Positions 13,382 through 50,829 of a stretch of DNA of 64,000 nt are shown one piece after another. The stretch lies in assembly GCA_003553795.1 (NCBI GenBank), contig PWFH01000031.1:1-64000 (forward strand). Direction: 5' to 3'. The translations under genes and the position numbers were made by a program. Within the stretch, counting starts at the first letter, position 1. Each line of letters begins with the position of its first letter. The DNA is from Egibacter sp. (GTDB lineage Bacteria; Actinomycetota; Nitriliruptoria; Euzebyales; Egibacteraceae). Under the pieces are notes generated by a model. That model was not told the DNA's origin, ran no database searches, and worked only from the letters and a program-made list of their open reading frames with translations.

Positions 13382-13442
13382 ACGAGCCCCCTCAACGCGG
13401 CGGCACGACGCCTGAGCGCGGTGCCGCGGAGGCCAGGCAGCG

Positions 13443-14759
13443 GTGAGCACCGCCGCGGGCCTCGGCCTCGTCCTCCTGCTCATCGGCCTCAACGGCTACT
13501 TCGTCGCCGCGGAGTTCGCCTTCGTCGCCGCGCGTCGCACCCACCTCGCCGACGCCGCCTCGCGGGGCGATCGCCGGGCCGGACGCGCCCTCGCGGTCCT
13601 GCGTCGGCTCTCGTTCATGCTGTCGGGCGCCCAGCTCGGCATCACCGCGACGTCACTGCTCGTCGGCTTCGTCGCCGAGCCGACGCTCGGGCGCGCGCTG
13701 CGGCCCGCGCTCGCGCTCGTCGGGGTGCCCGAGGCGGCGTCGGTCGGCGTGTCGCTGACCCTCGCGCTCATCCTCGCCACCGGCGTGCAGATGGTCTTCG
13801 GCGAGCTCGCGCCGAAGAACCTCGCGATCGCCAAGCCCGAGCCGTTCGCCCGCGCGCTCGCGCCGAGCACGCTGTGGTACCTGCGCCTGGCCGGACCCGT
13901 CATCCACTTCTTCGACGGGGCGTCGAACGGGCTGCTGCGACTCCTGCGGATCGACCCCGTCGAGGAGCTCGAGAGCGGCGTCGACCACGACGAGCTCGAG
14001 CACATCGTCGAGGCGTCGGGGCAGCAGGGCAGCCTCTCGCCGGACCAGACCGCGCTGCTGGCTCGCGCCATCGACTTCCGGGACCTGCGGGCCGCCGACG
14101 CGATGGTCCCCCGCACCGCCATCGTGACCCTCGACGTCGGGTCGAGCTGCGAGGAGCTCCGCGCGCTCGCGCACGTCTCCGGGCACAGCCGCTTCCCGGT
14201 CGTCGGCGACGGGCTCGACGACGTGCGCGGCGTCGTGCACGCCAAGGACGTGCTCGGCGTCGCCCACGCCGACCGGCGGTCGACCCCGGTGGCCGCGCTC
14301 ATGGGCGAGCCGCTCGCGGTGCCCGAGTCCGCGCCGCTGCGCGCGCTGCTGTCCGACCTGCGCGACGCCGGCACCGCCCTCGCGCTCGTCGTCGACGAGC
14401 ACGGCGGCACCGCGGGCATCGTCACCCTCGAGGACGTCGTCGAGGAGCTCGTCGGCGAGATCCGCGACGAGCACGACCACGTCGAGCCCGAGGTCGTCGC
14501 CCTGGCCGGGGGGCGCTTCCTCGTCCCCGGCTCCTGGCGTCTCGACGAGACCGTCCGCGACACCGGCGTCCACCTCCCGGAGGGCGACTACGAGACCCTG
14601 AGCGGGCTCGTGATGGCCGAGCTCGAGCGACTGCCCCGGGTCGGCGACGAGGTCGCCCTGCCCACCGCACGGCTGCGGGTGCTCGCCCTCGACGGCCATG
14701 CCGTCGGCCGTCTCGTGCTCGCGCCCCGCCCGGGCGATCCGCGGGAGGAGGCACGGTGA
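13443..14759 (+). CDS. CNNM/CBS-domain transporter (HlyC/CorC family), first copy
   Basis: This 438-residue membrane protein has a CNNM (DUF21) domain of about 180 residues (GLNGYFVAAEFAFVAARR, SGAQLGITATSLLVGF, VFGELAPKNLAIA). A CBS pair follows (MVPRTAIVTLD, SRFPVVGD and DEHGGTAGIVTLEDVVEELVGEI), then a C-terminal CorC_HlyC domain. The family is associated with magnesium or cobalt efflux. The GTG at 13443 follows a 61-bp gap after the VanW gene and may be cotranscribed with it. A paralogue follows with a 4-bp overlap, suggesting the two form a heterodimer. Confidence 0.92.
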   Translation: MSTAAGLGLVLLLIGLNGYFVAAEFAFVAARRTHLADAASRGDRRAGRALAVLRRLSFMLSGAQLGITATSLLVGFVAEPTLGRALRPALALVGVPEAASVGVSLTLALILATGVQMVFGELAPKNLAIAKPEPFARALAPSTLWYLRLAGPVIHFFDGASNGLLRLLRIDPVEELESGVDHDELEHIVEASGQQGSLSPDQTALLARAIDFRDLRAADAMVPRTAIVTLDVGSSCEELRALAHVSGHSRFPVVGDGLDDVRGVVHAKDVLGVAHADRRSTPVAALMGEPLAVPESAPLRALLSDLRDAGTALALVVDEHGGTAGIVTLEDVVEELVGEIRDEHDHVEPEVVALAGGRFLVPGSWRLDETVRDTGVHLPEGDYETLSGLVMAELERLPRVGDEVALPTARLRVLALDGHAVGRLVLAPRPGDPREEAR

Positions 14760-37024: not shown

Positions 37025-38107
37025 TCATGATAGCGGCCATCCCGCGCTGGCGAGGTCCTCGAGGGTGCGGACCTCGGTGAGCACCCCCGCGGCCGCGGCG
37101 ACGAGCGGCACGGCGAGCAGCGCGCCGGTGCCCTCCCCCAGGGCCATCGCGAGGTCGAGCAGCGGGTCGAGCCCGAGCGCGGCGAGACCGACGGAGGCCC
37201 CGGGCTCGGGTGAGCGGTGCCCGGCCACGAGGTGGTCGACGGTCGCGGGGGCGAGCCGCACGGCGACGAGCGCGGCGGCGACGGCGCTCACGCCGTCGAG
37301 CAGCACCGGCACACGGGCGCGCGCCCCGGCGAGGCAGACCCCCGCGAGCGCGGCGTGCTCGAGCCCGCCGAACGCCGTGAGCGCGCCGAGGCCGTCGTCG
37401 CCGTCGAGGTCGGCCCTGGCCACCGCCGCGTCCACGAGCGCGCGCTTGGCGGGCAGGTCGGCGGCGGGCCCGGCCGCCCCCGGGCCGACGACGTCGTGGG
37501 CGCGACGCCCGGTGAGGGCGGCGACGAGGCAGGCCGCCGAGGTGGTGTTCGCGATCCCCATGTCCCCGGTGACGAGGAGGTCGGCGCCCTCGGCGAGGGC
37601 CTCCTCGGCGGTGGCGATGCCCGCGCGCACCGCGGCATCGGCCTCCTCGGGGGCGAGCGCGGGGCCCGCGGCGAGGTCGCCGGCGCCCGCGCGCACGCCG
37701 GCACGGCGCAGCCCCGCAGCGCGGATGGGCGGCTCGGCGATGCCGGCGTCGAGGACGCGCACCCGCGCGCCGACGGCCCGGGCGAGGGCGTTGCCGGCGG
37801 CGGCGCCCTCGGCGAGCGTCGCGGCCATCGCCGCGGTGAGCCCCTGCGGCCATGGGCTCACACCGTGGACGTGCACGCCATGGTCGGCGGCGGCCACGAC
37901 GAGCACCGGACAGGTCGGCCGCGGCGGTGGGCAGCGCCCCGCCGACCCGGCGAGGCGCACCGCGAGCGCGCCGAGGCGCCCGAGGCCGCCGGGCGGGATC
38001 GCGAGGTTCGCGAGCCGACGCTCGGCGGCCCGCGCGCTCTCGGCGTCGGCAGGCGCGATGGCCGCGAGGGCTGCGCTGAGGGCGGCGCTGGGCCGCGGGC
38101 GGCTCAC
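37025..38107 (-). CDS. cobT: CobT nicotinate-nucleotide:dimethylbenzimidazole phosphoribosyltransferase
   Basis: This 360-residue enzyme makes alpha-ribazole phosphate for the lower ligand of cobalamin. Family blocks include GGLGRLGALAVRLAG, VVVAAADHGVHVHGVS-type LVVAAADHGV, VTGDMGIANTTSAA and the C-terminal MALGEGTGALLAVPL carrying the catalytic glutamate. The GTG at 38107 overlaps the upstream stop (GTGA). It is the last of a four-gene cobalamin-assembly cluster, opposite the B12 riboswitch-controlled importer. Confidence 0.93.
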   Translation of the reverse strand: MSRPRPSAALSAALAAIAPADAESARAAERRLANLAIPPGGLGRLGALAVRLAGSAGRCPPPRPTCPVLVVAAADHGVHVHGVSPWPQGLTAAMAATLAEGAAAGNALARAVGARVRVLDAGIAEPPIRAAGLRRAGVRAGAGDLAAGPALAPEEADAAVRAGIATAEEALAEGADLLVTGDMGIANTTSAACLVAALTGRRAHDVVGPGAAGPAADLPAKRALVDAAVARADLDGDDGLGALTAFGGLEHAALAGVCLAGARARVPVLLDGVSAVAAALVAVRLAPATVDHLVAGHRSPEPGASVGLAALGLDPLLDLAMALGEGTGALLAVPLVAAAAGVLTEVRTLEDLASAGWPLS

Positions 38108-38415
38108 GCAGCGTCGCCGAGCACGACGACGCGGCCGGCTGGCAGGGCGTCGGCGAGGGCGGTGACGACCGCGCGCACGTGGCGCGCGTCGGCGAGGACG
38201 GCGACGGCGCCCGAGCAGGCCGCGGCGACGTCGGCGAGCGCGTCGGGGTCGGCCGGCGCCTCCCGCAGGCTCACCCGGGGCGTGGCGAGGTGGCGTGCCG
38301 AGCCGAGCTGGGAGCGCGGCGCGAGCACGACGTCGGCCCCGGCGATCGCGCGTAGCGCCTCGCTCGGCAGGTCCTGGCCGTCGAGGGCGATGACGGTGAG
38401 GCGGTCGGGCGGCAC
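38104..38415 (-). CDS. CbiE-like tetrapyrrole methylase fragment
   Basis: This 103-residue product looks like the start of a precorrin methyltransferase (CbiE/CobL type): LTVIALDGQDLPSEALRAIAGADVVLAPRSQL resembles the usual beginning of such enzymes. It ends by about residue 100, while intact CbiE is about 200 residues. The SAM-binding GDP motif and second half are missing. GTG 38415 has GGGAG 7 bp upstream and the stop overlaps cobT, so it seems to be translated. It may be a decayed remnant or a small accessory domain; I cannot decide. Confidence 0.6.
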   Translation of the reverse strand: MPPDRLTVIALDGQDLPSEALRAIAGADVVLAPRSQLGSARHLATPRVSLREAPADPDALADVAAACSGAVAVLADARHVRAVVTALADALPAGRVVVLGDAA

Positions 38416-38467
38416 GGGCGGGCTCCCATCGGGGCGTCGTCGACGACGATAGCCCGCGGCGCCGGTC

Positions 38468-39046
38468 TCACGCACCGAGGGCCTCGAGCGTCCACGCGTC
38501 ACCGTGGCGCCGCAGCACCGCGGCCCGGCCGTGGCCCGCGGCGAGGGCGAAGCCCTGCGGCGGCGACAGGCCGATGGCCCTGGCGAGCACGAGGCGCAGC
38601 GGCCCCGCGTGGGTGACGGCGAGCACCCGCCGACCGGCGACGGCGAGCCGCTCGGCCGCCGCCCAGGCGCGCGCCTCGACCACAGCGAGGGGCTCGCCAC
38701 CGGGAGGGGTGAACGCCGCGTAGGCGGCGGGGTCGGCGAGGACCTCGGGGGCCACGCCCGCCCAGAGCTCCTCCCAGCGCCGGCCCTCCCAGGCGCCGAA
38801 GTCGCGCTCGGCGAGGCCGGCCTCGACCGACGGCTGCGCGGTCCAGGCCTGGGCGGTCTCGCGCGCCCTCGCCGCCGGCGAGCTCACGACCACGTCGAAG
38901 GCCAGGGCGAGCCGGCGCCGGGCGCTCACGGCCTGGCTCCGCCCCTGGCGGCTGAGCGGCGGGTCGACGCGCTGGCCCGCGCAGCGGCCCCCGGTGTCGG
39001 CCTCGCCGTGGCGCAGCAGGACGAGGGTCGCCGGCTCGGCGCTCAC
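38468..39046 (-). CDS. Histidine phosphatase, candidate alpha-ribazole phosphatase (CobC-like)
   Basis: This 192-residue phosphoglycerate-mutase-fold enzyme has the catalytic RHG in LVLLRHGEAD, LSRQGRSQA, the second-Arg segment SSPAARARETAQAW, the acidic ERDFGAWEG and the second histidine in VTHAGPLRLVLA. CobC-type enzymes dephosphorylate alpha-ribazole phosphate made by CobT. The gene lies between cobS and the CbiE-like fragment, overlaps cobS by 4 bp and so most likely plays that role. The superfamily is broad, so the assignment rests on context. Confidence 0.85.
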   Translation of the reverse strand: MSAEPATLVLLRHGEADTGGRCAGQRVDPPLSRQGRSQAVSARRRLALAFDVVVSSPAARARETAQAWTAQPSVEAGLAERDFGAWEGRRWEELWAGVAPEVLADPAAYAAFTPPGGEPLAVVEARAWAAAERLAVAGRRVLAVTHAGPLRLVLARAIGLSPPQGFALAAGHGRAAVLRRHGDAWTLEALGA

Positions 39047-39810
39047 GTCAGCCCCGGCCACCCGCGCGCGGCGAGCGCGGCGACGACGGCGATCGTGGCG
39101 AGCTCGACGAGCTGGTTCGTCGCCCCAAGGGCGTCGCCGGTGAGCCCACCGAGCTTGCGGCGCAGCAGCGCCGCGCACGCCAGCGAGACGAGCACGCCGA
39201 CGGCGAGCAGCAGCGGTGCCCATGCGGCGCTCGCGACGAGCGCGGCGAGGGCGACCGTCACGAGGGCGACCGCGCTGCCACCGGCACGCAGCGGCCCGGT
39301 CACCGCCGCGCCGGTGCCGTCGGGCGCCGCGGGTGGCAGCAGCCGCACCATGAGCAGGATCGAGCCGCGGCCGAGGACGGCGCCGGCGAGGACCGCCCGG
39401 GCGAAGTCGAGCAGGGACAGCGGGACGAGCAGGGCGACGCGCAGGGAGAGCACGATGAGCAGCGCGACCGTGCCGTAGGTCCCGAGCCGGCTGTCGCGCA
39501 TGATCGCGATGCGCTGCTCGCGGTCCCACCCGCCCCAGATCCCGTCGGCGCTGTCGGCGAGGCCGTCCTCGTGGAACGCGCCGGTGGCCGCGACCATCGC
39601 CGCCACGGCCGCGAGCGTCGCGACGGCCTCGCCCCACAACGGCTCCATGGCCGCGCGGACCGCGACGGCGATCGCGGCGACGGCGAGGCCGACGAGGGGG
39701 AAGGCCGCCGAGGCGCGCCGCAGGTCGCCCTCGTCGACGCGGATCGCCGGCGTCGGGATGCGGGTGAGGAACTGGAAGGCGATGGCGGTGAGCCGCGCGG
39801 TCTCGCGCAT
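39043..39810 (-). CDS. cobS: CobS adenosylcobinamide-GDP ribazoletransferase
   Basis: This 255-residue integral membrane enzyme joins adenosylcobinamide-GDP to alpha-ribazole (phosphate). It starts with LTAIAFQFLTRIPTP, then has the metal-binding motif HEDGLADSADGIWGG and a GRGSILLM segment, with about six helices. It is the first gene of the cobalamin cluster, starting at ATG 39810. Its promoter must lie between here and the divergent riboswitch (39811-39961), but I could not define it. Confidence 0.94.
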   Translation of the reverse strand: MRETARLTAIAFQFLTRIPTPAIRVDEGDLRRASAAFPLVGLAVAAIAVAVRAAMEPLWGEAVATLAAVAAMVAATGAFHEDGLADSADGIWGGWDREQRIAIMRDSRLGTYGTVALLIVLSLRVALLVPLSLLDFARAVLAGAVLGRGSILLMVRLLPPAAPDGTGAAVTGPLRAGGSAVALVTVALAALVASAAWAPLLLAVGVLVSLACAALLRRKLGGLTGDALGATNQLVELATIAVVAALAARGWPGLT

Positions 39811-39961: not shown

Positions 39962-40130
39962 TGTACGTTGCCCTCGCCGTAGTGGACGGGAAGCCGGTGG
40001 GAATCCGGCGCGGTCCTCGCCACTGTGAGCGGGTAGCGCGACGCCAGCGCGCCACTGGGTGACCAGCCCGGGAAGGCGGCGTCCGTAGCGATGATCCGCG
40101 AGCCAGGAGACCGGCTACGGCCCCAGCCAC
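39962..40130 (+). ncRNA. Cobalamin (AdoCbl) riboswitch
   Basis: The leader contains the diagnostic core: GGGAAGCCGGTGGGAATCCGG followed by CGCGGTCCTCGCCACTGTGA, and further downstream the B12-box region AGCCAGGAGACCGGC (40101-40115). The order and spacing match actinobacterial cobalamin riboswitches. It lies directly upstream of the substrate-binding protein of a corrinoid importer, so it should lower importer expression when cobalamin is plentiful. I could not fix the transcription start; TGTACGTT near 39962-39969 may be a -10 element. The exact boundaries are approximate. Confidence 0.92.
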
Positions 40131-40131
40131 A

Positions 40132-40150
40132 TTCCTCGAGGTAAGGAAGG
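40132..40150 (+). promoter_or_regulatory. Candidate ribosome-site hairpin after the B12 riboswitch
   Basis: TTCCT (40132-40136) can pair with AGGAA (40144-40148), which forms part of the ribosome site AAGGAAGG for GTG 40156. It sits just after the B12-box, so ligand binding could control translation by freeing or hiding the site. A rho-independent terminator is not evident here. Confidence 0.5.
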
Positions 40151-40155
40151 TCACC

Positions 40156-41472
40156 GTGACCCTCGCTTCGCGCACCCGCGCATTCCTCCTGCTCCTCGTC
40201 GCCGCGCTCGCGCTCGCCGCGTGCGCCGACGACGTCGAGGAGGCCGCCGACGAGCCCGACGACACGACCGAGGACGCCGAGGACGACGAGCCCGACGACG
40301 AGCCCGCCGACGAGCCCGACGGCGACGCCGATGGCGAGCCCGCCGCGCTCGAGGCCAACCTCACCGACCGCTGCGCCGAGGAGGACGAGGCCGACCTCGA
40401 TCTCTTCCCCGAGCAGGCGAGCTTCGAGCACGCCGAGCGCGTCGACGTGCGCTACCACGACCACTACAAGGTCGTCGAGGTCACGACGACCTTCACCGAC
40501 GAGCCCGTGACCTTCGTGCTCCTGCAGTGCGGCGCCGAGCCGCCCGAGCTCGACGGCGACCTCGCCGAGGCCCCGGTCATCGAGGTCCCCGTCGAGGAGG
40601 CCGTGACGCTCACGACCGTCAACGTCGCGCACTTCGACGCCCTCGACGCCGTCGACCGCCTCGTCGGCGTCGGCACGACGGACTTCGTCACCACCGCGTC
40701 GGTGCGCGAGCGCATCGACGCCGGGGAGGTCGAGGGCTACGGCACGCCCGAGGGCCCGCCCGACGCCGAGCGGCTCATCGCCGCCAGCCCCGACGTCGCC
40801 GTCCTCGACGCCTTCGGCGACAGCGTGCTCGACGACGTCGCCCTGCTCGGCGACGCCGAGGTCGACGTCCTGCTCAACGCCGACTTCGACGAGCCCGCTC
40901 CCCTCGGGCGCGCCGAGTGGCTGAAGGTCACCGCCCTGCTGCTCAACCGCGAGGCGGACGCCGAGGCGCTGTTCGACGAGATCGCCGCGGAGTACGACGC
41001 CGTGGTCGCGGCCGTGGCCGACGTCGAGGACCGCCCGCGGGGGCTCCTCGACGAGCCGTTCGAGGGCACGTGGTTCGCCCCTGGCGGAGAGAGCCTCACC
41101 GCGACGCTCATCGACGACGCCGGCGGCGACTACGTCTTCGCCGACGACGACGCGACGGGCTCGCTGGCCTTCGACATCGAGACCGTGCTCGACGAGGGCG
41201 CCGACGCCGACGTCTGGCTGCTGGGCTCGGTCATGGCCTCCTTCGAGGAGCTCCTCGCGCAGGACGAGCGCCTCACGGAGATCGCCGCGGTCGGCGACGA
41301 CGCGGTGTGGGCCGGGGACGCGGGGACCTCACCGGAGGGCGGCAACCCCCGCTTCGAGCGCGCGCCGCTGCGCGCCGACGAGCTGCTCGCCGACGTCGCG
41401 ACGATCCTCCACCCCGACCTCGTCGAGCACGAGCTCAGGTACTACCGCCCGGTGGGTGAGGGCGCGCAATGA
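40156..41472 (+). CDS. Corrinoid ABC transporter substrate-binding lipoprotein (BtuF-like)
   Basis: This 438-residue lipoprotein has a lipobox LAAC with Cys23, an Asp/Glu/Pro linker to about residue 70 and a class III PBP fold. Signature blocks are TTVNVAHFDALDAVDRLVGVG, SPDVAVLDAFGDS and AEWLKVTALLLNREADAE. Proteins of this fold bind B12 or iron chelates; the riboswitch and the adjacent permease point to corrinoids. The GTG at 40156 follows AAGGAAGG. It is longer than E. coli BtuF (about 270 residues), partly because of the linker and an extended C-terminus. Confidence 0.88.
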   Translation: MTLASRTRAFLLLLVAALALAACADDVEEAADEPDDTTEDAEDDEPDDEPADEPDGDADGEPAALEANLTDRCAEEDEADLDLFPEQASFEHAERVDVRYHDHYKVVEVTTTFTDEPVTFVLLQCGAEPPELDGDLAEAPVIEVPVEEAVTLTTVNVAHFDALDAVDRLVGVGTTDFVTTASVRERIDAGEVEGYGTPEGPPDAERLIAASPDVAVLDAFGDSVLDDVALLGDAEVDVLLNADFDEPAPLGRAEWLKVTALLLNREADAEALFDEIAAEYDAVVAAVADVEDRPRGLLDEPFEGTWFAPGGESLTATLIDDAGGDYVFADDDATGSLAFDIETVLDEGADADVWLLGSVMASFEELLAQDERLTEIAAVGDDAVWAGDAGTSPEGGNPRFERAPLRADELLADVATILHPDLVEHELRYYRPVGEGAQ

Positions 41473-42602
41473 CCGCCGACGCTCCCGCTCGCCCGCGGCG
41501 GGAGCGCGTCGGAACGCCGGCCCTCGAGCCTGACGCCCCAGCGCCTCCCACCGACCGTCCCGGACGGACGACCGCCGGGATGGTCGCCCTCGCCCTGGTC
41601 TGCGCCGCGCTCTTCCTCGCCACCCTCGCCCTGGGGTCGGTGCGGCTGCCGCTGGGTGAGGTGCTCGCGGTGCTCACCGGCAGCGGGGCCGGCGACAGCA
41701 CCCAGCTCATCGTCGAGCAGGTCCGCCTACCCCGGGCGGTGACCGCGCTCATCGCCGGCGCCGCGCTCGGCCTCGGCGGGCTGCAGATGCAGACGCTCTT
41801 CCGCAACCCCCTCGCCGACCCGTTCATCCTCGGCATCAGCGCCGGTGCGAGCCTCGGGGTGGCCCTCGTCGTGCTCGCCGGCGGCTCGGGCGGGGCGATG
41901 CTCGCGCTGGGGCTCGGCCTGGCCGGCGGCGCGGCGATCACCGCGGCGGCGGCCACCGGCGCGCTCGCGGTCACCCTGCTCGTCCTCGCCGCCTCACGCC
42001 GCGTCGAGAGCCCCGCCACGGTGCTCATCATCGGGCTCATGGTCGGCTACGCGGTCACCGCGGTGGTCAGCGTCCTCGTCCAGGGGGGCTTCGGGGAGCT
42101 CGAGCGGGTCCGCGCCTTCGTCGCCTGGGGCTTCGGCAGCTTCGCGGGAACCTCGTGGAGCGACCTCGTCGTGCTCTCGGCCACCGTCGCCGTCGGCCTC
42201 GCGATCGGCGTCGCGACGATGAAGGCGCTCAACGCCCTGCTGCTCGGTGACGCCTACGCCGCGTCGATGGGCGTGCGGGTGCGGGGCGTGCGCGTCCTCG
42301 TCGTCGTCAGCGCCTCACTGCTCGCCGGCGCGGTCACGGCCTTCTGCGGACCGATCGCCTTCATCGGCGTGGCCTCCCCGCACCTCGCGCGCGGTCTGCT
42401 GCGCAGCTCCGACCACCGGGTCCTGCTGCCGGCGACGCTGCTCGTCGGCGCCGCGGTCGCCCTCGCCGCCGGGCTCGTCGCCCAATTGCCGGGGCAGGAC
42501 GCGACCCTGCCGCTGAACTCCGTGACCGCGCTCGTGGGCGCGCCGGTCGTCGTCGCCGTGCTCCTGCGGCTGCGACGCTCGAGCCGGGCGGTGGTCACAT
42601 GA
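41469..42602 (+). CDS. Corrinoid ABC transporter permease (BtuC/FecCD family)
   Basis: This 377-residue permease has about ten helices and the FecCD motifs LPRAVTALIAGAALGLGG, MQTLFRNPLADPFILGISAGAS and, before the last helices, CGPIAFIGVASPHLARGL. Its N-terminal 35 residues are a Pro/Arg-rich cytoplasmic leader. The ATG at 41469 overlaps the binding-protein stop by 4 bp. It probably works as a homodimer with the ATPase from the next gene. Confidence 0.92.
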   Translation: MTADAPARPRRERVGTPALEPDAPAPPTDRPGRTTAGMVALALVCAALFLATLALGSVRLPLGEVLAVLTGSGAGDSTQLIVEQVRLPRAVTALIAGAALGLGGLQMQTLFRNPLADPFILGISAGASLGVALVVLAGGSGGAMLALGLGLAGGAAITAAAATGALAVTLLVLAASRRVESPATVLIIGLMVGYAVTAVVSVLVQGGFGELERVRAFVAWGFGSFAGTSWSDLVVLSATVAVGLAIGVATMKALNALLLGDAYAASMGVRVRGVRVLVVVSASLLAGAVTAFCGPIAFIGVASPHLARGLLRSSDHRVLLPATLLVGAAVALAAGLVAQLPGQDATLPLNSVTALVGAPVVVAVLLRLRRSSRAVVT

Positions 42603-43720
42603 GCGTGACCGAGGCCCGCCCGGGTCCCGGCGGCCCGGCTCCCCGACCCTGCGGCAACGGCGTCCACCCCGACGCCCCGCCCGAGCGGGTGCTGTCGGCG
42701 CGGGGGCTCGCCGTCGGCTACCGCCAGCGCCGCCGGATCGCGCCGGTGCTCTCGGGGCTCGACCTCGACCTGCGCATCGGCCAGCTCACCTGTCTGCTCG
42801 GCGCCAACGGCACCGGCAAGACGACGCTGCTGCGCACCCTGTCGGGCTCGCTGCCCCCGCTGGGCGGCACGGTCTGCCTCGGCGAGGCCGACCTCACCGC
42901 GCTGTCCCCCGCCGACCGTGCACAACGGCTCGCGGTCGTGCTCACGAGCCGCGTCGACCCCGGCCTCCTGCGCGTCGGGGACCTCGTCGCCCTCGGCCGC
43001 CATCCCTACACCGGCTGGAACGGTCGGCTGCGCGCGGCCGACCACGAGGCGATCGACTGGGCGCTCGAGGCCAGCGGTGCCGCAGCCTTGCGGGCGCGCC
43101 CGGTCCTCGAGCTCTCCGACGGCGAGCGCCAACGGGTGATGATCGCCCGCGCGCTCGCGCAGGAGCCCGAGATCCTCATGCTCGACGAGCCGACGGCCTT
43201 CGTCGACCTGCCCCGACGCCTCGAGCTCGCCGGCCTGCTGACCCGCCTCGCCAGGGAGTGCGGCCTCGCGGTGCTGCTCACGAGCCACGACCTCGACCTC
43301 GCGCTGCGCAGCGCCGACGAGGTGTGGCTGCTCGGCCGCGGTGACCGAGACGCCGACCGACGCGTGGCCAGCGGCGCCCCCGAGGACCTCGCGCTCTCCG
43401 GCGCGCTCGCGGAGGCCTTCGACACCGACACCGTGCGCTACGACCTCGCCCGCGGGCGCTTCGAGGCCGACGGGGCCCCCGCCCCGCGCGTCCACGTCGA
43501 CGGCGAGGGCCCCGAGGCGCGGTGGACCACCCACGCCATCGAGCGGGCCGGCTTCGCGCCAGCCTCCGGCGCGCCAGCACGCCTGCGCGTGGCCGTCGAG
43601 CCCGGGCCGACCTGGCGGCTCGACGACGGCCAGGCCTCACGACACCACCGCACCCTCGCCGACCTCGTCACCGACCTCCGCTCACGGGAGGGGCAGCGCA
43701 CCGCCCATCAACCGAACTGA
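42599..43720 (+). CDS. Corrinoid ABC transporter ATPase (BtuD-like) with C-terminal extension
   Basis: This 373-residue ATPase has Walker A GANGTGKTT, a signature LSDGERQRVMIARAL, Walker B ILMLDEPTAFVD and the H-loop LLTSHDLD. Beyond the normal 260-residue domain it carries an extra roughly 110 residues (AEAFDTDTVRYDLARGRFEAD and onward) that resemble extensions of some FecE-type ATPases. The ATG overlaps the permease stop by 4 bp. A 225-bp gap (43721-43945) then separates it from the dehalogenase genes; it holds a weak 6-bp hairpin (CGGGGG 43823-43828 with CCCCCG 43834-43839). Confidence 0.9.
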   Translation: MSVTEARPGPGGPAPRPCGNGVHPDAPPERVLSARGLAVGYRQRRRIAPVLSGLDLDLRIGQLTCLLGANGTGKTTLLRTLSGSLPPLGGTVCLGEADLTALSPADRAQRLAVVLTSRVDPGLLRVGDLVALGRHPYTGWNGRLRAADHEAIDWALEASGAAALRARPVLELSDGERQRVMIARALAQEPEILMLDEPTAFVDLPRRLELAGLLTRLARECGLAVLLTSHDLDLALRSADEVWLLGRGDRDADRRVASGAPEDLALSGALAEAFDTDTVRYDLARGRFEADGAPAPRVHVDGEGPEARWTTHAIERAGFAPASGAPARLRVAVEPGPTWRLDDGQASRHHRTLADLVTDLRSREGQRTAHQPN

Positions 43721-43945
43721 AGCCGCAGGACCGTACAACCTGGGCTACCCCCACCCCCGGCGGTAGACCCCGAAGGCCCGTTGCCATTCGGGCCGTCCGG
43801 CCCTGCGACCGTGCCCATTCACCGGGGGTGGCGCCCCCGCGGAGCCCTTACGGTGCCGCCAGCCAGCTGAAAGACGGGTGCCAGGAGCGAGGGCACTCGA
43901 CGAGGGCAGCTGGGCACGGTCGGGTCGCATCGCCGCGACGCAGGG

Positions 43946-45094
43946 ATGGCCAGCGGCATGAGCACGAACCCCCACACCAGCGATTGGCTCGCGCGCCTCG
44001 AGCGCACCGGGGTCGACACCGAGGCGCTCGGCGGCACCGAGGAGGCCCGGCAGGCCCTCGCGGCGGCGCTGGCCGACCACGACGTCCTCGAGCCGGCGCC
44101 CGGCGGCCGAGCGCGCCTCGCCCCAGGCCTCGCCGAGGTCCTCGAGCGCGGCATCGCCGAGGCCGCGACCCACGATGCCGGCGCCCTGGCCGAGGCTCTC
44201 CGCGCGGGGCTCGACTGCCCGGAGGAGGAGGCCGAGCACCTCCTGCTGCACTGGGCGAGCCCGGTCCGCGTCGCCGCGGCGACGGTGACCGGCTCGCGCC
44301 TGTCCGCGCCGAGCGCGGTCGTCCTGCCCGCCGCCGAGCTCGTCGCGCGCCTGTGGCTGCTGCCCTGGCTCGATGCCGTCGTCGAGCCCGGTGAGGGTCC
44401 TGGGGAGGCCGCGGTCGACCCGGAGCGCCTCCTCGAGCTCATGCTCGCCAGCGGCACGCTGCGTGAGCAGGCCGTCGAGGACGAGACCGTCCTCGACCTC
44501 ACCCCGGCGTTCCTCGCCGCGCGGGCGCTGCGGCAGCAGCAGGCGCGCGGGTGGCGGGCCGCCGAGCGCCGCGCCCGGCTCGGCGAGCTGCTCAACCTCG
44601 ACGGCGAGGCCCTGTCGGAGGGCTACCGCCTCGCCGGCTCCGGCCGCACCCTCGGGGAGCTGCTCGCGCTGCACCAGCTCACCGCCCTCAGCGACCTCGG
44701 CCTGTGGACCGGCTGGCAGACCCTGGCCTCCTTCGCCCGACCCTTCCAGCCCGTGGGCGAGGCCGACCTCGAGGCGTGGAGCCACGGCGAGGTCCTGCTG
44801 CTCGTGAGCTCGCCCTCCTCACGGCCCGCCCAGGCGATGGAGGAGCTGCTCACCGAGGCGCTGCGCAGCGTCGACGTGCCCGTGGGGGTCATCAACGCCG
44901 ACGACGAGCGCGCCCTGTGCGAGCGACTCGACGTCGACCGGCCACCGATGGTGCTCCTGCGGCGCGCCGGACGGACCGTCGACCGCATCCGCTGGGCCCA
45001 CACCCCCGTCGAGCTGCGCGACCGCATCGAGCGGTTCCTCGACGACCCTCCCGAGGACACGACGGCGGAGGAGCCGAGCCGCCATGCGATCTGA
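43946..45094 (+). CDS. Unknown protein with thioredoxin-fold C-terminus, dehalogenase locus
   Basis: I do not recognise this 382-residue cytoplasmic protein as a named family. Its N-terminal three-quarters are helical and acidic. The last about 100 residues read like a thioredoxin fold: a strand (VLLLVSSPSSRPAQAM) where the redox CxxC would lie, VGVINADDERALCERLDV, a cis-Pro-like RPPMVLLRRAG and a last helix. The CxxC is replaced by SPSSR, so it is not a redox enzyme of the usual kind. It lies 56 bp upstream of the dehalogenase, so it may be a folding, cofactor-insertion or Tat-proofreading chaperone. ATG 43958 is an alternative start. Confidence 0.7.
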   Translation: MASGMSTNPHTSDWLARLERTGVDTEALGGTEEARQALAAALADHDVLEPAPGGRARLAPGLAEVLERGIAEAATHDAGALAEALRAGLDCPEEEAEHLLLHWASPVRVAAATVTGSRLSAPSAVVLPAAELVARLWLLPWLDAVVEPGEGPGEAAVDPERLLELMLASGTLREQAVEDETVLDLTPAFLAARALRQQQARGWRAAERRARLGELLNLDGEALSEGYRLAGSGRTLGELLALHQLTALSDLGLWTGWQTLASFARPFQPVGEADLEAWSHGEVLLLVSSPSSRPAQAMEELLTEALRSVDVPVGVINADDERALCERLDVDRPPMVLLRRAGRTVDRIRWAHTPVELRDRIERFLDDPPEDTTAEEPSRHAI

Positions 45095-45150
45095 CCCCCG
45101 ACGCCAGCCCACGTGCCCACGACCCGACCGCGCCGACCCAGGAGCCTGTG

Positions 45151-46608
45151 ATGAGTGACCGCACGACCGACCGCAAGGGCGAGGCCCCCGCCGAGGCGCG
45201 GGGCGTCTCGCGCCGGGACTTCTTCAAGCTCACGGGGGCGACCGCCGGCGCGGCGGTGGCCACCGGCGCGGCCGCGAAGGGCGGCCGCAGCCAGGCCTTC
45301 GCCCAGGCCGCGAACGACGCCGCCGACCCCAGCCCCGACGCGCCGATCCACAAGCGTCCCTGGTGGGTCCGGGAGGTCGACGAGCCGACGACCGAGATCG
45401 ACTGGGGTGAGAAGGTCCGGATCAGCGAACGCGACCAGACCGTCCGCGGCCCCGGACTCGCCGGCTACGTCGGCGAAGCGCGTGTCGAGCACATTGGCGA
45501 GATCTCCGCGGAGAACAAGATCGAGCGCATCCGCGCCGACGAGCCCGGCTACCGCCTGCGCGACTGGGCGCTCAACGCCGCCAACGGCCAGGGCTCGCGC
45601 GTGCCGATGAGCTTCATCGGACCGCAGACGGTCGACTCACCCGACGACCTCGGGGTGCCCCGCTGGGAGGGCACGCCGTCGGAGAACGCGAACATGGTGC
45701 GCGCGGCGCTACGGCACATGGGCGCGGCGACCGTCGGCTTCGTCGAGCTCGACGAGGACACCACCGAGAAGCTCCTCTACTCCCAGGACCCCGACGGCAA
45801 GATGGTCGAGATCGAGGATGTCGAGGAGGCCTACGAGGACGACGACAAGCGCGTCATCCCGAGCACGGCCCGTTGGGTCATCGTCTACACCGTGCAGATG
45901 TCCGAGGAGACGATGCGGCTGTCCCCGGCGCCCATCGGCGGCCAGACGACCGGCATCGCCTACGCGAGGTTCACCCAGATCCAGGCCATGATGCAGGAGT
46001 TCATGCATGGCATCGGCTGGCAGTGCCTCGGGGAGTCGACGATCAACGCCCTCGGGATCTCCCCCGCCTTCGGGGTCATGGCCGGCCTCGGGGAGATGGG
46101 GCGGTTCAACCGCATGATCACCCCGGAGTTCGGGCCGATGGTCAGGGTCTTCAAGCTCGTCACCGATCTCCCCCTCGAGCCGACGAAGCCCATCGACGCC
46201 GGCATCCAGGAGTTCTGCAAGAGCTGCGCGCTGTGCGCCGAGGCCTGCCCGTCGGACTCGCTGAGCTACGAGCCCGAGCCGTTCTGGGAGCCGGTGGGCG
46301 AGTGGAACAACTTCGGCCACAAGGCCTGGTTCGAGAACGCCGTGACCTGCATGGAGTACTGGCGCACCGGCCCCGGCACGAACTGCGGGATCTGCTTCTC
46401 CGTCTGCCCCTACGCCAAGAAGGACGAGACGTTCATGCACACCCTCGTCAAGGGTGTCTCGGCGAGGACCGGGCTGTTCAACGGCATGTTCACCGCGATG
46501 GACCAGGCCTTCGGCTACGGCGAGGGTCGCGATCCCGACGAGTGGTGGAACCTCGACCTGCCCGAGTACGGCATCGACACCCAGCGCACCGCGACGGTGC
46601 AGGCCTAG
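45151..46608 (+). CDS. rdhA: Reductive dehalogenase catalytic subunit (RdhA), Tat-exported
   Basis: This 485-residue enzyme has a Tat signal (SRRDFFKLTGATAGAA, Arg21-Arg22) and two ferredoxin-type cluster motifs: Cys356-x2-Cys359-x2-Cys362-x3-Cys366-Pro and Cys400-x11-Cys412-x2-Cys415-x3-Cys419-Pro, the pattern for two 4Fe-4S clusters. The corrinoid domain keeps GLGEMGRFNRMITPEFGPMVRVFKLVTDLPL-type sequence (MAGLGEMGRFNRM, TPEFGPMVRVF) and Tyr271 in GIAYARFT, a candidate proton donor. It should cleave carbon-halogen bonds using B12. QueG was rejected because QueG is cytoplasmic and lacks a Tat signal. The nearby riboswitch-controlled B12 importer fits a corrinoid enzyme. Confidence 0.92.
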   Translation: MSDRTTDRKGEAPAEARGVSRRDFFKLTGATAGAAVATGAAAKGGRSQAFAQAANDAADPSPDAPIHKRPWWVREVDEPTTEIDWGEKVRISERDQTVRGPGLAGYVGEARVEHIGEISAENKIERIRADEPGYRLRDWALNAANGQGSRVPMSFIGPQTVDSPDDLGVPRWEGTPSENANMVRAALRHMGAATVGFVELDEDTTEKLLYSQDPDGKMVEIEDVEEAYEDDDKRVIPSTARWVIVYTVQMSEETMRLSPAPIGGQTTGIAYARFTQIQAMMQEFMHGIGWQCLGESTINALGISPAFGVMAGLGEMGRFNRMITPEFGPMVRVFKLVTDLPLEPTKPIDAGIQEFCKSCALCAEACPSDSLSYEPEPFWEPVGEWNNFGHKAWFENAVTCMEYWRTGPGTNCGICFSVCPYAKKDETFMHTLVKGVSARTGLFNGMFTAMDQAFGYGEGRDPDEWWNLDLPEYGIDTQRTATVQA

Positions 46609-46641
46609 CGCCGCCCCCACGACCCGAGGAGGTCGAAGCAC

Positions 46642-46971
46642 ATGCTGTGGTTCATCATCGGCATCATCGTCGGGGCCGGCGGGCTCTGGCTCGTCCAGCG
46701 CACGCGTGACCCCGAGGTCACCACGACCTGGTACGGCTGGGTGGTGGGCGTCCTCGGCGCGCTGCTCATCCTGCTCTCCATCGAGGCCTTCACCGGCTCG
46801 CTCGCCGAGTCCGAGCCGCAGGCGGCGTGGATGAGCCTGCTCACGCTCGGGCTGCCAGGGCTCATCCTCGCCCTCCTGGCGTGGTGGCTGCCCGGCCGCA
46901 GCGGCAAGGACGAAGCGGAGTCCTCGCCCGAGACCGACGACGCCCCCGACGCCGAGCACGCGGCGCTCTAG
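46642..46971 (+). CDS. RdhB-like membrane anchor
   Basis: This 109-residue protein has three hydrophobic helices (about residues 2-18, 31-50 and 68-87) with short loops and a charged C-terminal tail. That size and topology match RdhB anchors that hold the exported dehalogenase at the membrane; WYGWVVGVLGALLILLSIE is its middle helix. It starts 33 bp after rdhA with GAGGAGG. RdhB proteins are poorly conserved, so assignment relies on position and topology. Confidence 0.75.
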   Translation: MLWFIIGIIVGAGGLWLVQRTRDPEVTTTWYGWVVGVLGALLILLSIEAFTGSLAESEPQAAWMSLLTLGLPGLILALLAWWLPGRSGKDEAESSPETDDAPDAEHAAL

Positions 46972-46990
46972 CGGCACCGCCGCGGGCCAC

Positions 46991-47024
46991 GCGCCGGCCG
47001 TGCCCCACGAGGCGCGGCCGGCGC
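46991..47024 (+). terminator. Hairpin between rdhB-like and reductase genes
   Basis: Nine-base arms GCGCCGGCC (46991-46999) and GGCCGGCGC (47016-47024) flank a 16-nt loop. There is no U-tract. It could partly terminate or protect the message and set the rdhAB-to-reductase ratio. Confidence 0.5.
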
Positions 47025-47081
47025 TCCATGTCACCGGCTGAGCGTCGGGGCCCGCGGGAGCCCGGACCGAAGGACGAACGG

Positions 47082-48395
47082 ATGACCCTTGCCCTGCGAG
47101 GCGTGATGTGGGCGGGCGTCTACGTCGCCGCGATCGCCGCGCCCCTGTTCTTCGTGCTCATCGGCGCGCCCGAGGGCCGGGGCTGGTGGGCGGACCTGTC
47201 GATGGCCCTCGGCTTCATCGCCATGGCGATGCTCGGCCTCCAGCTCGTCGTCACCGCCCGGCTGCCACAGGTGGAGGCGCCGTTCGGCCTCGACGTCGTC
47301 CTGCAGTACCACCGCCAGATCTCCTACGTCATCCTCGCCTTCGTCCTCCTGCATCCGGCGATGCTCATGGTGCAGGACCCCTCGCTGCTGCGGCTGCTCA
47401 ACCCCGCGACCGCGACGACCGCGGCGCTGTGGGGACTGGCCTCGGTCGCGCTGCTGCTCGTCCTGCTGGCCCTGTCGATCTGGCGCACTCGCCTCGGCCT
47501 GTCCTACGAGGTCTGGCGGGTCAGCCACGGGCTGCTCGCGATCGGCGTCGTGGCCACCGCCTTCGTCCACATCGAGCGGGTCGGCTACTACGTCTCCGGG
47601 CCGCTGGCCCGCGCGGTGTGGTTCGCGGTGGCCGCCGGGCTCATCGGCGCGCTGGCCTACGTCCGGCTCGTCAAGCCGCTCAGGCGCCGCAAGCGGCCCT
47701 ACCGCGTCACCGCGGTCACCGCGCAGCCGTGCGAGGCCTGGAGCCTCGGCGTCGAGCCCGACGGTCACCGCGGCCTGCGCTTCCTGCCCGGGCAGTTCGC
47801 CTGGCTGACGATCGGCCGCAGCCCCTTCTCGGTCAAGGAGCACCCGTTCTCGTTCTCCTCGGCGGCCACCGACCCCTCGCGGCTCGAGTTCACGATCAAG
47901 GCCCTCGGCGACGACACCGCGCGGATCGGCGAGGTCGAGCCCGGCACGCGGGTCTACCTCGACGGGCCCTACGGGGCGTTCAGCTACACCCGCAGCGAGG
48001 CCGCGGGCTTCGTCTTCCTCGCCGGCGGGGTCGGCGTCACCCCGATCATGAGCATGCTCCGCACCCTCGCCGACCTCGAGGACCAACGGCCCATGCACCT
48101 GCTCTACGCCTGCCGCAGCGAGGCCGACCTCCTCTTCGGTGACGATCTCGACGGCCTCGCCGAGCGGCTCGACCTGTCGATCACCATCGTGCTCGAGCAC
48201 CCCAGCGACGAGTGGAGGGGTCCACGCGGGGTCATCACCCCCGAGCTCCTCGACGAGCGGCTGCCCGCACGCCCGCGCCGCTACGCCTACTTCCTCTGCG
48301 GCCCCCCGGCGATGATGGACGCCCTCGAGGCCGACCTCGCCGCCCGCAAGATCCCCCCCGAGCGGATCAACCTCGAGCGCTTCGACCTCATCTAG
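47082..48395 (+). CDS. Membrane NAD(P)H flavocytochrome b reductase (ferric-reductase/FRE family)
   Basis: This 437-residue protein has six helices with two pairs of heme-ligand histidines spaced identically, His77-x13-His91 (YHRQISYVILAFVLLHP) and His149-x13-His163 (SHGLLAIGVVATAFVH). These place two b hemes across the membrane, as in Nox/ferric reductases. The cytoplasmic half has the FAD motif HPFSFSS, the nicotinamide motif AGGVGVTPIMSML and LCGPPAMMDALEADL. Electrons would flow from NAD(P)H through FAD and two hemes to the outer face. ATG 47082 follows AGGAC; ATG 47028 is an alternative start. It is the likely donor for the dehalogenase. Confidence 0.9.
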   Translation: MTLALRGVMWAGVYVAAIAAPLFFVLIGAPEGRGWWADLSMALGFIAMAMLGLQLVVTARLPQVEAPFGLDVVLQYHRQISYVILAFVLLHPAMLMVQDPSLLRLLNPATATTAALWGLASVALLLVLLALSIWRTRLGLSYEVWRVSHGLLAIGVVATAFVHIERVGYYVSGPLARAVWFAVAAGLIGALAYVRLVKPLRRRKRPYRVTAVTAQPCEAWSLGVEPDGHRGLRFLPGQFAWLTIGRSPFSVKEHPFSFSSAATDPSRLEFTIKALGDDTARIGEVEPGTRVYLDGPYGAFSYTRSEAAGFVFLAGGVGVTPIMSMLRTLADLEDQRPMHLLYACRSEADLLFGDDLDGLAERLDLSITIVLEHPSDEWRGPRGVITPELLDERLPARPRRYAYFLCGPPAMMDALEADLAARKIPPERINLERFDLI

Positions 48396-48410
48396 CCCCC
48401 AGGAGAGCCC

Positions 48411-48800
48411 GTGCGCCAGGCCTTCGCCACCCGCCTCGTCCGCAGCGTGACCGTCGCGCTGCTCGCCCTCGCGGGCCTCTTCGCCCTGCTCGCCAACGCC
48501 ACCGGCGCGGGCCGGGTCGACGAGGTGCTCGGCCTCGACGCCGACCACGAGCGCGGCGAGGCGCTCTACATGGAGGTCACCAACCCGACGTGCGCCTCGT
48601 GCCACTCGCTGTCCCACGCCGGCGCGGAGTCGATCATCGCCTCAGACCTCGACGAGACCCAGCCCAGCGCCCGGGTGACCGTGCAGTCGCTCATCGGCGG
48701 CACGACGCCGGAGCACGACCGCGAGGGCTACCGCCACGACCTCTCGAACCAGGACCTCGCCGACCTCGCCCGCTACATCGAGGCCGTCGCCGGCGAGTGA
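48411..48800 (+). CDS. Small monoheme cytochrome c, membrane-tethered or secreted
   Basis: This 129-residue protein has a signal or anchor helix (TVALLALAGLFALLANA) and one heme-attachment motif, Cys61-Ala-Ser-Cys-His65. No methionine follows the heme motif, so the usual class I sixth ligand is missing; His residues in SLSHAGAE and TPEHDREGYRHDLS are possible replacements. The C-terminal LADLARYIEAVAGE is a class I-like last helix. The GTG at 48411 follows AGGAG, 15 bp after the reductase stop. It may carry electrons from the reductase to RdhA. Confidence 0.88.
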   Translation: MRQAFATRLVRSVTVALLALAGLFALLANATGAGRVDEVLGLDADHERGEALYMEVTNPTCASCHSLSHAGAESIIASDLDETQPSARVTVQSLIGGTTPEHDREGYRHDLSNQDLADLARYIEAVAGE

Positions 48801-48905: not shown

Positions 48906-48939
48906 AGTTACCCGCCGGTAACCTTACCGGCGGGTAACT
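48906..48939. promoter_or_regulatory. 34-bp palindromic operator upstream of acyl-CoA dehydrogenase
   Basis: Sixteen-base arms AGTTACCCGCCGGTAA (48906-48921) and TTACCGGCGGGTAACT (48924-48939) are perfectly inverted around CC. Each arm is itself a near-palindrome TTACC-N4-GGTAA. The site lies about 70 bp ahead of the ATG at 49009. TetR-type lipid regulators in Actinobacteria use TTAC/GTAA-containing palindromes, so a repressor of fatty-acid genes is plausible. The rest of the 48801-49008 gap shows nothing clear. Confidence 0.8.
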
Positions 48940-49008: not shown

Positions 49009-50829
49009 ATGACCCACTACCGGAGCAACCTCCGCGACATCCAGTTCAACCTCTTCGAGGTCCTCGGCACCCACGAGCGCTTCGGCAGCGGGCCCTACCG
49101 GCAGATGGACCGCGACAGCGCCGAGGCCGTGCTCGAGGAGATCGAGCGCCTGGCCCGCGAGGACTTCGCCGCGAGCTTCGTCGAGGGCGACCGCGTCCCC
49201 CTCGAGCTCGCCGACGGCGACGTCGCGATCCCCGAGGGGACCAAGCGCAGCCTCGACGCCTACTTCGGCGGCGGCTGGGAGGGCCTGACCCTGCCGGAGT
49301 CCCTCGGCGGCCTCGGCGCGCCGAAGAGCCTGTCGTGGGCGGCGCAGTCGATGCTGCTCGGCGCGAACCCCGCAGCGTTCATGTACGCCGCCGGGCCGTT
49401 CTTCGCGGCGATCACCGAGGAGCTCGCCACCGACGAGCAGCGCGAGCGCTGGGTGCGCCCGTGGGTCGAGCGGCGCTGGGGCGGGACGATGGTGCTCACC
49501 GAGCCCGACGCCGGCTCCGACGTCGGCGCCGGGCGCACGAAGGCCGTCGACAACGGCGACGGCACCTGGTCGATCACCGGGGTGAAGCGCTTCATCACCA
49601 ACGGCGACTTCGACTGGCCGGAGAACATCCTCCACCTCGTCCTCGCCCGCCCCGAGGGCCACGGCCCGGGCACGAAGGGCCTGTCGCTCTTCCTCGTGCC
49701 GAAGCACTGGGTCGAGCCCGACGGCTCCCTCGGCGAGCGCAACCCCGTCAGCGCCACCGCCGTCGAGGACAAGATGGGGCTCAAGGCCTCCTCGACCTGC
49801 GAGATGACCTTCGAGGACGCCCGCGGGGTGCTCGTCGGCGAGGTCCACGACGGCATCCGCCAGATGTTCAAGGTCATCGAGTACGCGCGGATGATGGTCG
49901 GCACGAAGGCCATCGAGACACTGTCGACGGGCTACCTCAACGCCCTCGACTACGCCAAGGAGCGGGTCCAGGGGGCCGACCTCACCCAGGCGGCGGACAA
50001 GACCGCCCCGCGGGTCGAGATCATCCGCCACCCCGACGTCCGCCGGATGCTCATGGCCCAGAAGGCCCACGTCGAGGGCATGCGCGCGCTCGTGCTCTAC
50101 ACCGCCTCGATCCAGGACGAGATCGAGATCCTCGAGGAGGCGGGGCAGTCCGGCGGCGAGGCGCACACCGCCGCGGTCAAGCGCAACGACCTCCTCCTGC
50201 CGCTCGTGAAGGGCTACGGCTCGGAGAAGAGCTACGAGCTGCTGTCGCTGTCGCTGCAGGTCCTCGGCGGCTCGGGCTACATCCGCGACTACCCCATCGA
50301 GCAGTACATCCGCGACGCGAAGATCGACACCCTCTACGAGGGCACGACCGGCATCCAGGGTCAGGACCTCTTCTTCCGCAAGATCGGCAAGGACCAGGGC
50401 GCGACGCTGACCGCCCTGCTCACCGAGGTCGCCGAGTTCGCCAAGGGCGACGGCGGAGGGGGCGCGCTCGCCGCCGAGCGGGCCCGCCTGGCCGCCGCCC
50501 TCGAGGACGTCCAGGGCATGCTCGGCTCGATGGTCGGCTTCTTCGGCCACGAGTCCGGCAAGGGCATCTACCTCGTCGGGCTCAACACCACCGAGTTCCT
50601 CTCGTCGCTCTCAGAGCTCGTCATCGGCTGGCTGCTCCTGCGCCACGCCGAGGTCGCGCTCGCCGCCCTCGGGCAGGATCCCAGCGAGCGCGACCGCGCG
50701 TTCTACGAGGGCAAGGTCGCCGCGGCCCGCTGGTTCGCCGGGCGGGTCCTGCCGCAGCTGTCGACGCGCCGGGAGATCCTCGCGAGCACCGACATGGAGC
50801 TCATGGACCTCGACGACCGGGCCCTCTGA
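49009..50829 (+). CDS. Acyl-CoA dehydrogenase (long, C-terminally extended)
   Basis: This 606-residue flavoenzyme catalyses the first step of beta-oxidation. FAD and substrate blocks are MVLTEPDAGSDVGAG, WSITGVKRFITNGD and KMGLKASSTCEMTFED. The catalytic glutamate is in IDTLYEGTTGIQGQD, as in medium- and very-long-chain enzymes of the AcdH C-terminal-domain group. The last about 130 residues form the extra helical domain of the 600-residue family. It is preceded by the 34-bp palindrome and seems to be transcribed alone. Chain-length specificity is unknown. Confidence 0.93.
   Translation: MTHYRSNLRDIQFNLFEVLGTHERFGSGPYRQMDRDSAEAVLEEIERLAREDFAASFVEGDRVPLELADGDVAIPEGTKRSLDAYFGGGWEGLTLPESLGGLGAPKSLSWAAQSMLLGANPAAFMYAAGPFFAAITEELATDEQRERWVRPWVERRWGGTMVLTEPDAGSDVGAGRTKAVDNGDGTWSITGVKRFITNGDFDWPENILHLVLARPEGHGPGTKGLSLFLVPKHWVEPDGSLGERNPVSATAVEDKMGLKASSTCEMTFEDARGVLVGEVHDGIRQMFKVIEYARMMVGTKAIETLSTGYLNALDYAKERVQGADLTQAADKTAPRVEIIRHPDVRRMLMAQKAHVEGMRALVLYTASIQDEIEILEEAGQSGGEAHTAAVKRNDLLLPLVKGYGSEKSYELLSLSLQVLGGSGYIRDYPIEQYIRDAKIDTLYEGTTGIQGQDLFFRKIGKDQGATLTALLTEVAEFAKGDGGGGALAAERARLAAALEDVQGMLGSMVGFFGHESGKGIYLVGLNTTEFLSSLSELVIGWLLLRHAEVALAALGQDPSERDRAFYEGKVAAARWFAGRVLPQLSTRREILASTDMELMDLDDRAL

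Follow-up and report, generated by a model that had tools for sequence, protein, structure and literature searches.

Within a 64,000-nucleotide stretch of the Egibacter sp. contig PWFH01000031.1 (the window; contig C59 in a 96.5%-complete draft assembly of 3.13 Mb), we have identified a five-gene cassette encoding a reductive dehalogenase of the respiratory type, RdhA, with its membrane anchor RdhB, accompanied by a thioredoxin-like protein, a flavocytochrome b NAD(P)H reductase and a small cytochrome c. The chances appear evenly balanced that the cassette constitutes an RdhAB of the respiratory type, equipped with a chaperone and with a transmembrane electron feed driven by NAD(P)H, analogous to MsrQ/MsrP. 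The forward strand presents, in order, a cobalamin riboswitch, the corrinoid importer BtuFCD, the thioredoxin-like protein, RdhA, RdhB, the flavocytochrome and the cytochrome, which a preliminary description had regarded as one B12-linked module. The anatomy is firm, with gene identities, motifs, conservation in two genera and inserted position all legible in the DNA itself; the electron route could fall either way, and the claim of a single B12 module is not supported.

Assignment of RdhA rests on concordant features. The protein scores 295.8 bits against TIGR02486, above the cut-off of 160.35, and comprises 485 amino acids with a twin-arginine translocation (Tat) motif, SRRDFFK, at residue 20, when numbered from the ATG at 45151. 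Two 4Fe-4S motifs are present (C356-x2-C-x2-C-x3-CP and C400...C412-x2-C-x3-CP), and Tyr271 and Arg332 align with the catalytic residues of PceA. Among solved structures, RdhA matches SmPceA (4uqu, 170.9 bits) and DhPceA (8q4h, 120 bits), with the NpRdhA chains scoring ~81 bits. Catabolic NpRdhA-type sequences align a Lys at the position of this Arg; together with the Tat signal, the length and the separate membrane reductase, this sets RdhA apart from the catabolic group. RdhB is 43% identical to the RdhB encoded on the Dehalococcoides mccartyi plasmid pDhc6 (36% for RdhA of the same pair), with three predicted transmembrane helices and an invariant GS-x2-E-x-EP containing the EXE motif. RdhA is accordingly best described as a predicted Tat-exported, extracytoplasmic corrinoid/2x[4Fe-4S] dehalogenase of the respiratory type. 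Every element named in the preliminary description was recovered in its place; its Tat-exported actinobacterial RdhA is borne out by the family score, the Tat and FeS motifs and the Tyr/Arg pair, and what it called an RdhB-like three-helix anchor is a genuine RdhB. A role for RdhB as a b-haem carrier was considered and dropped, RdhB having no conserved His; PceB likewise gives no evidence of cofactors (PMC10624902).

The dehalogenase activity and halogenated substrate that we infer for RdhA invite one alternative, namely that this homologue is not a dehalogenase and reduces some other substrate outside the membrane, the electron chain being unchanged. No genes for the degradation of halogenated compounds were recognised among the scanned flanking genes, and most RdhA homologues, to our knowledge, have no tested substrate. 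The catalytic Tyr and Arg, the FeS motifs and the TIGR02486 score are nevertheless those of true reductive dehalogenases, and we regard the alternative as improbable.

The gene directly upstream of rdhA encodes a protein with a helical N-terminal part of ~260 residues and a thioredoxin-like C-terminus that aligns to solved thioredoxin-fold proteins. It gave no significant Pfam or NCBIfam match, in keeping with its earlier description as an unknown thioredoxin-fold protein. SSPSSRP occupies the CXXC position, such that the domain lacks CXXC and would be redox-dead. Its best PDB match, 2es7, is recorded as a putative thiol-disulfide isomerase/putative chaperone and is, we take it, Salmonella HyaE. 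HyaE is listed among the redox-enzyme maturation proteins (PMC4464133). Among 66 genomes of the class Nitriliruptoria, the protein occurs only with RdhA. This distribution, and its position upstream of the Tat-exported RdhA, are most simply explained by a putative HyaE-like chaperone for RdhA maturation and Tat export.

The flavocytochrome comprises Ferric_reduct (PF01794), FAD_binding_8 (PF08022) and NAD_binding_1 (PF00175) domains, with His pairs H77/H91 and H149/H163 (H-x(13)-H) providing four candidate haem ligands in two transmembrane helices. It aligns over nearly its full length with bacterial NADPH oxidase (NOX) structures 8qt6/8qq7 (68.8 bits). By its four His residues and its FAD and NAD domains, it is assigned to the NOX/ferric reductase superfamily. 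In two genomes (G409 and G410, loci L069 and L070), flavocytochrome homologues adjoin NuoF-like (by eye) and lipoprotein-like genes, in neighbourhoods reminiscent of extracytosolic electron-transfer clusters.

The cytochrome is SorU-like, with a single CASCH and an N-terminal transmembrane helix. Across three homologues, the only invariant His residues are H65 (of CASCH) and H102, and no conserved Met follows the CXXCH; H102 aligns beside the Met-ligand region of SorU and is likely the second axial haem ligand. With H65 and H102 as the sole conserved ligand candidates, a low-potential, bis-His haem is suggested; bis-His haems of such cytochromes have low potentials. One further genome of the class (G327) carries the cytochrome; it lacks RdhA and also possesses the closest homologue of the reductase outside the cassette (55% identity). 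This co-occurrence suggests that reductase and cytochrome work together even without RdhA.

All five genes recur in the same order, with the acyl-CoA dehydrogenase (ACAD) on the same side, in Nitriliruptorales bacterium CSSed162cmB_40R1 (L003; G402, contig C18), which belongs to a second genus. The cassette genes of the two organisms are 60-75% identical. In all five, third-position codon differences are ~two to three times as frequent as second-position differences, as is the case in ACAD, which indicates purifying selection. Retention of the reductase and cytochrome beside rdhA in a second genus argues that the association is not due to chance. RdhA was found in two of the class genomes, the thioredoxin-like protein in two and the cytochrome in three. 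A third genome possesses only a distant RdhA-like protein. This protein (G421; L102 722-1969) has 416 amino acids and no evident Tat signal, adjoins a short-chain dehydrogenase gene, and is of another, non-respiratory kind. Among 397 sampled genomes from the phylum, only that of Egibacter passed the RdhA cut-off; an RdhA search of genome contigs returned one relative, L003, and a search of viral contigs returned none. In the ACAD tree, rdhA-less sisters separate the two rdh+ genomes, and their grouping as a clade by descent of this neighbouring gene was rejected (approximately unbiased test, p-AU 9.5e-5). The cassette may possibly have been gained once and lost twice, or transferred.

A plausible route can be proposed from these components. 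The HyaE-like protein would hold the RdhA precursor during insertion of the corrinoid and FeS clusters, whereupon folded RdhA would leave via Tat and dock on RdhB at the outer membrane face. The NOX-like flavocytochrome b would draw electrons from cytoplasmic NAD(P)H and carry them across the membrane by way of FAD and its two b haems; RdhA would receive them at its surface FeS cluster from the anchored cytochrome c, and its corrinoid, as Co(I), would remove the halide. Because this path leads electrons from the negative face of the membrane to the positive one, the potential across it would assist the low-potential reduction, and the chain would consume energy, not conserve it. NAD(P)H as the source is favored by the NAD domain of the reductase and by the presence of reductase and cytochrome alongside rdhA in both genomes. 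Transmembrane electron transport driven by NAD(P)H is considered likely for MsrQ-like proteins that bear an NAD domain at the C-terminus (PMC8238504), a precedent that by analogy supports the direction of flow and not the acceptor.

A number of observations weigh against this proposal. Homologues of the flavocytochrome, 42-55% identical, occur in ~14 genomes of the class without rdhA and have unrelated neighbours, which argues that the family is not dedicated to dehalogenation and that the cassette reductase was recruited from a general family; more distant homologues are also seen in genomes lacking rdhA. A gap of 110 bp separates rdhB from the reductase gene, the G327 homologues of cytochrome and reductase lie on different contigs, and only two genomes carry the cassette. 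As to the chaperone, the 2es7 match is weak (E 4.5e-4), the AlphaFold model of the thioredoxin-like protein is poor (predicted local distance difference test, pLDDT, about 51) and Foldseek returned generic thioredoxin folds only; the cytochrome model, with a similar pLDDT, was too poor for use. Furthermore, RdhAB retain the residues of a menaquinol site and proton path (K423/K424, H430, K434 as an R to K change, D451, Y456, and RdhB E56/E58), and the genome encodes MenA.

These last points bear on a rival in which the cassette encodes an ordinary menaquinol-fed RdhAB, of the kind found in the PceA2B2 menaquinol:organohalide oxidoreductase complex, in an actinobacterium also able to respire oxygen. 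The flavocytochrome and cytochrome c would then be accessory, serving, for example, in reductive reactivation of Co(II) RdhA or in oxygen removal. In DhPceA2B2, menaquinone lies between RdhB and RdhA near K489, H495, R499, D515 and Y520, with the EXE motif in PceB (PMC10624902); retention of these residues and of EXE, a standard RdhB anchor, and the presence of MenA and a haem-copper oxidase all conform to such a complex. The D. mccartyi pair, which gave the closest match obtained here, nevertheless keeps the same residues, and Dehalococcoides lack quinones and cytochromes (PMC10772276). Hence, the menaquinol-site residues are not diagnostic of quinol use. Menaquinol feeding would also leave the conserved reductase and cytochrome unexplained, and we consider it rather unlikely. 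The NAD(P)H-driven route of the preliminary description hangs in the balance: a NOX-like reductase with an NAD domain is present, whereas the menaquinol-site residues, MenA and the reductase homologues in rdhA-less genomes speak against it.

The coupling to cofactor import fares differently. In four relatives without rdhA (G119, G195, G152 and G130) the locus reads riboswitch-BtuF-BtuC-BtuD-ACAD, with the ACAD start ~100-200 bp past BtuD, and the riboswitch precedes BtuF in five rdhA-less relatives. In G119, CobS, CobC and CobT lie divergently beyond BtuF in an arrangement identical to that of the Egibacter locus. A double TTACC-N4-GGTAA-like operator precedes ACAD in all five rdhA-less relatives and in both rdhA genomes. 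From the btuD-ACAD adjacency and the shared operator it follows that the cassette occupies a site without these genes elsewhere. By this comparison the supposed module resolves into two units, an older riboswitch-BtuFCD locus and the five-gene cassette; import of B12 is ancestral, not dedicated to RdhA. The riboswitch-BtuFCD locus belongs with the divergent cobTCS genes, which represent corrinoid salvage and lower-ligand assembly. No CobJ/CbiH match over the cut-off was obtained in the Egibacter genome, and corrinoid import and lower-ligand assembly therefore look like general salvage.

It might still be argued that importer and dehalogenase genes form one unit under the control of the riboswitch, as the preliminary description would have it with its riboswitch-linked module and cofactor import encoded alongside. 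Importer and cassette share a strand with a gap of 226 bp, in which we found no T-tailed intrinsic terminator, no sigma-70 match and no significant RNA folding (z -1.4); RdhA requires a corrinoid, and CobJ/CbiH gave no match over the cut-off. Against this stand the rdhA-less relatives with riboswitch-BtuFCD-ACAD in the same place. In L003, the 256 bp before the cassette contain no riboswitch or remnant, and BtuC was not found in that genome, which is only 64% complete. The L003 contig breaks off shortly before the cassette, so that linkage to the importer is seen in one genome only. Moreover, repression by B12 through such a switch would reduce RdhA at times when its cofactor is abundant. Joint control seems highly doubtful to us, and the empty-site comparison illustrates that a B12 importer of ancestral origin is readily misread as belonging to a dehalogenase module.

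Table 1. Features of the dehalogenase locus and its surroundings in the window.
Feature	Position	Strand	Evidence and remarks
CobT, CobC-like phosphatase, CobS	37025..39810	-	NCBIfam TIGR03160 324.5 bits, TIGR03162 105 bits, TIGR00317 126 bits; context, outside cassette
Cobalamin riboswitch RF00174, upstream of btuF	39963..40133	+	Covariance model
BtuF-like corrinoid-binding lipoprotein	40156..41472	+	PF01497 (Peripla_BP_2) 72.5 bits; same-site orthologues in rdhA-less genomes
BtuC-like permease	41469..42602	+	PF01032 (FecCD) 230 bits; top NCBIfam match BtuC, under its cut-off
BtuD-like ATPase	42599..43720	+	PF00005 (ABC_tran) 92.7 bits; top NCBIfam match corrinoid ABC ATPase, under its cut-off
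Cassette (five genes)	43946..48800	+	
Cassette gene 1, thioredoxin-like protein	43946..45094	+	Alternative start 43958 possible; best PDB match 2es7
Cassette gene 2, RdhA	45151..46608	+	Start ATG 45151; TIGR02486 295.8 bits
Cassette gene 3, RdhB membrane anchor	46642..46971	+	Three predicted transmembrane helices, EXE motif (GSLAESEP)
Cassette gene 4, flavocytochrome b NAD(P)H reductase	47082..48395	+	PF01794, PF08022, PF00175; start probably ATG 47082
Cassette gene 5, membrane-anchored monohaem cytochrome c	48411..48800	+	CASCH, one transmembrane helix
Tandem palindromic operators TTACCCGCCGGTAA, TTACCGGCGGGTAA of downstream ACAD	48907..48938	.	Right-hand boundary of inserted cassette
ACAD	49009..50829	+	Context; ancestral neighbour of BtuD

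Several features of the surroundings complete the description of the locus. The riboswitch scores 103.5 bits, above the RF00174 gathering threshold of 31.5, and the BtuF, BtuC and BtuD genes succeed one another with short overlaps. Downstream of the cassette, ACAD forms a unit under separate regulation; the two sequences preceding it, TTACCCGCCGGTAA and TTACCGGCGGGTAA, are near-perfect tandem palindromes kept across Nitriliruptorales, and probably constitute a TetR-type operator. Neither the ACAD unit nor the cob genes immediately upstream on the reverse strand figured in the preliminary description. No direct or inverted repeats of at least 10 bases were found at the cassette ends. In G141 (L081, about 13340-14200), the interval from BtuD to ACAD holds a different gene, for a P-loop ATPase (GKGGVGKTT...) that looks incomplete, and the btuD-ACAD intergenic site may therefore be a hot spot for insertion. 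In G401 (L078 3009-3153), ACAD directly adjoins CobS with neither BtuFCD nor rdh genes between, the whole stretch being deleted relative to sister genomes. Within the Egibacter cob cluster, a stretch of 103 amino acids on the reverse strand (38104-38415) weakly resembles tetrapyrrole methylases (E 0.003) and is a possible remnant of a corrin-ring synthesis gene.

The supply of low-potential electrons to respiratory-type RdhAs is a long-argued question, and a cassette with its own candidate donor chain and chaperone makes it testable with five genes. The cassette would also extend membrane RdhAB systems to Nitriliruptoria, a class abundant in soda-lake sediments (PMC6704655, PMC6146748); the Egibacter host is itself a soda-lake-type actinobacterium. 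The open literature searched yielded no account of a NOX-like reductase and cytochrome c encoded in one cassette with RdhAB, of an RdhA with a ferric-reductase partner, or of an RdhA in Nitriliruptor. A PceA-like RdhA is already known in an actinobacterium, the T7RdhA/A6RdhA of Acidimicrobiaceae (PMC10008544).

Respiratory RdhA/RdhB systems, such as D. hafniense PceA2B2 (8q4h, a menaquinol:organohalide oxidoreductase) and D. mccartyi pDhc6, likewise possess a Tat signal, corrinoid domain, two 4Fe-4S motifs, the Tyr/Arg pair and a separate three-helix RdhB with EXE. They differ in that the present host is an actinobacterium with a haem-copper oxidase, and in that rdhC/rdhT, two-component regulators or hydrogenase parts give way, among the neighbouring genes, to those for a HyaE-like protein, a NOX-like reductase and a cytochrome c. 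Catabolic RdhAs (BhbA, JtRdhA, NpRdhA) resemble the proposed system in using electrons from NAD(P)H and in belonging to oxygen-respiring hosts; unlike the Egibacter RdhA, to which they are ~24-25% identical, they are cytoplasmic, with a duplicated vestigial domain, mostly a fused reductase, and an active-site Lys. Fusion is not universal among them, contrary to the preliminary description, as NpRdhA-type enzymes adjoin separate ferredoxins and a ferredoxin oxidoreductase (PMC10463259).

The HyaE hydrogenase Tat chaperone likewise has a thioredoxin fold without CXXC and is encoded with a Tat-exported redox enzyme; the candidate chaperone here has ~260 extra N-terminal residues and weak similarity (E 4.5e-4), and its partner would be RdhA. 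MsrQ/MsrP and bacterial NOX (SpNOX-like) share with the cassette a ferric-reductase-type b-haem domain that conducts electrons from NAD(P)H to the outside of the membrane. The acceptor is a molybdoenzyme in the case of MsrP and oxygen in that of SpNOX, whereas the acceptor here would be a corrinoid/FeS enzyme reached via cytochrome c. Set among these systems, our tentative proposal, to which we give slightly less than an even chance, is of a membrane-anchored respiratory RdhA whose quinol or hydrogenase supply has been swapped for a dedicated NOX-like reductase that oxidizes NAD(P)H and for a cytochrome c with a bis-His haem, electrons being driven outward to Co(I) by the membrane potential. 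If true, reductive dehalogenases would have a third design of electron supply, one open to an organism also able to respire oxygen.

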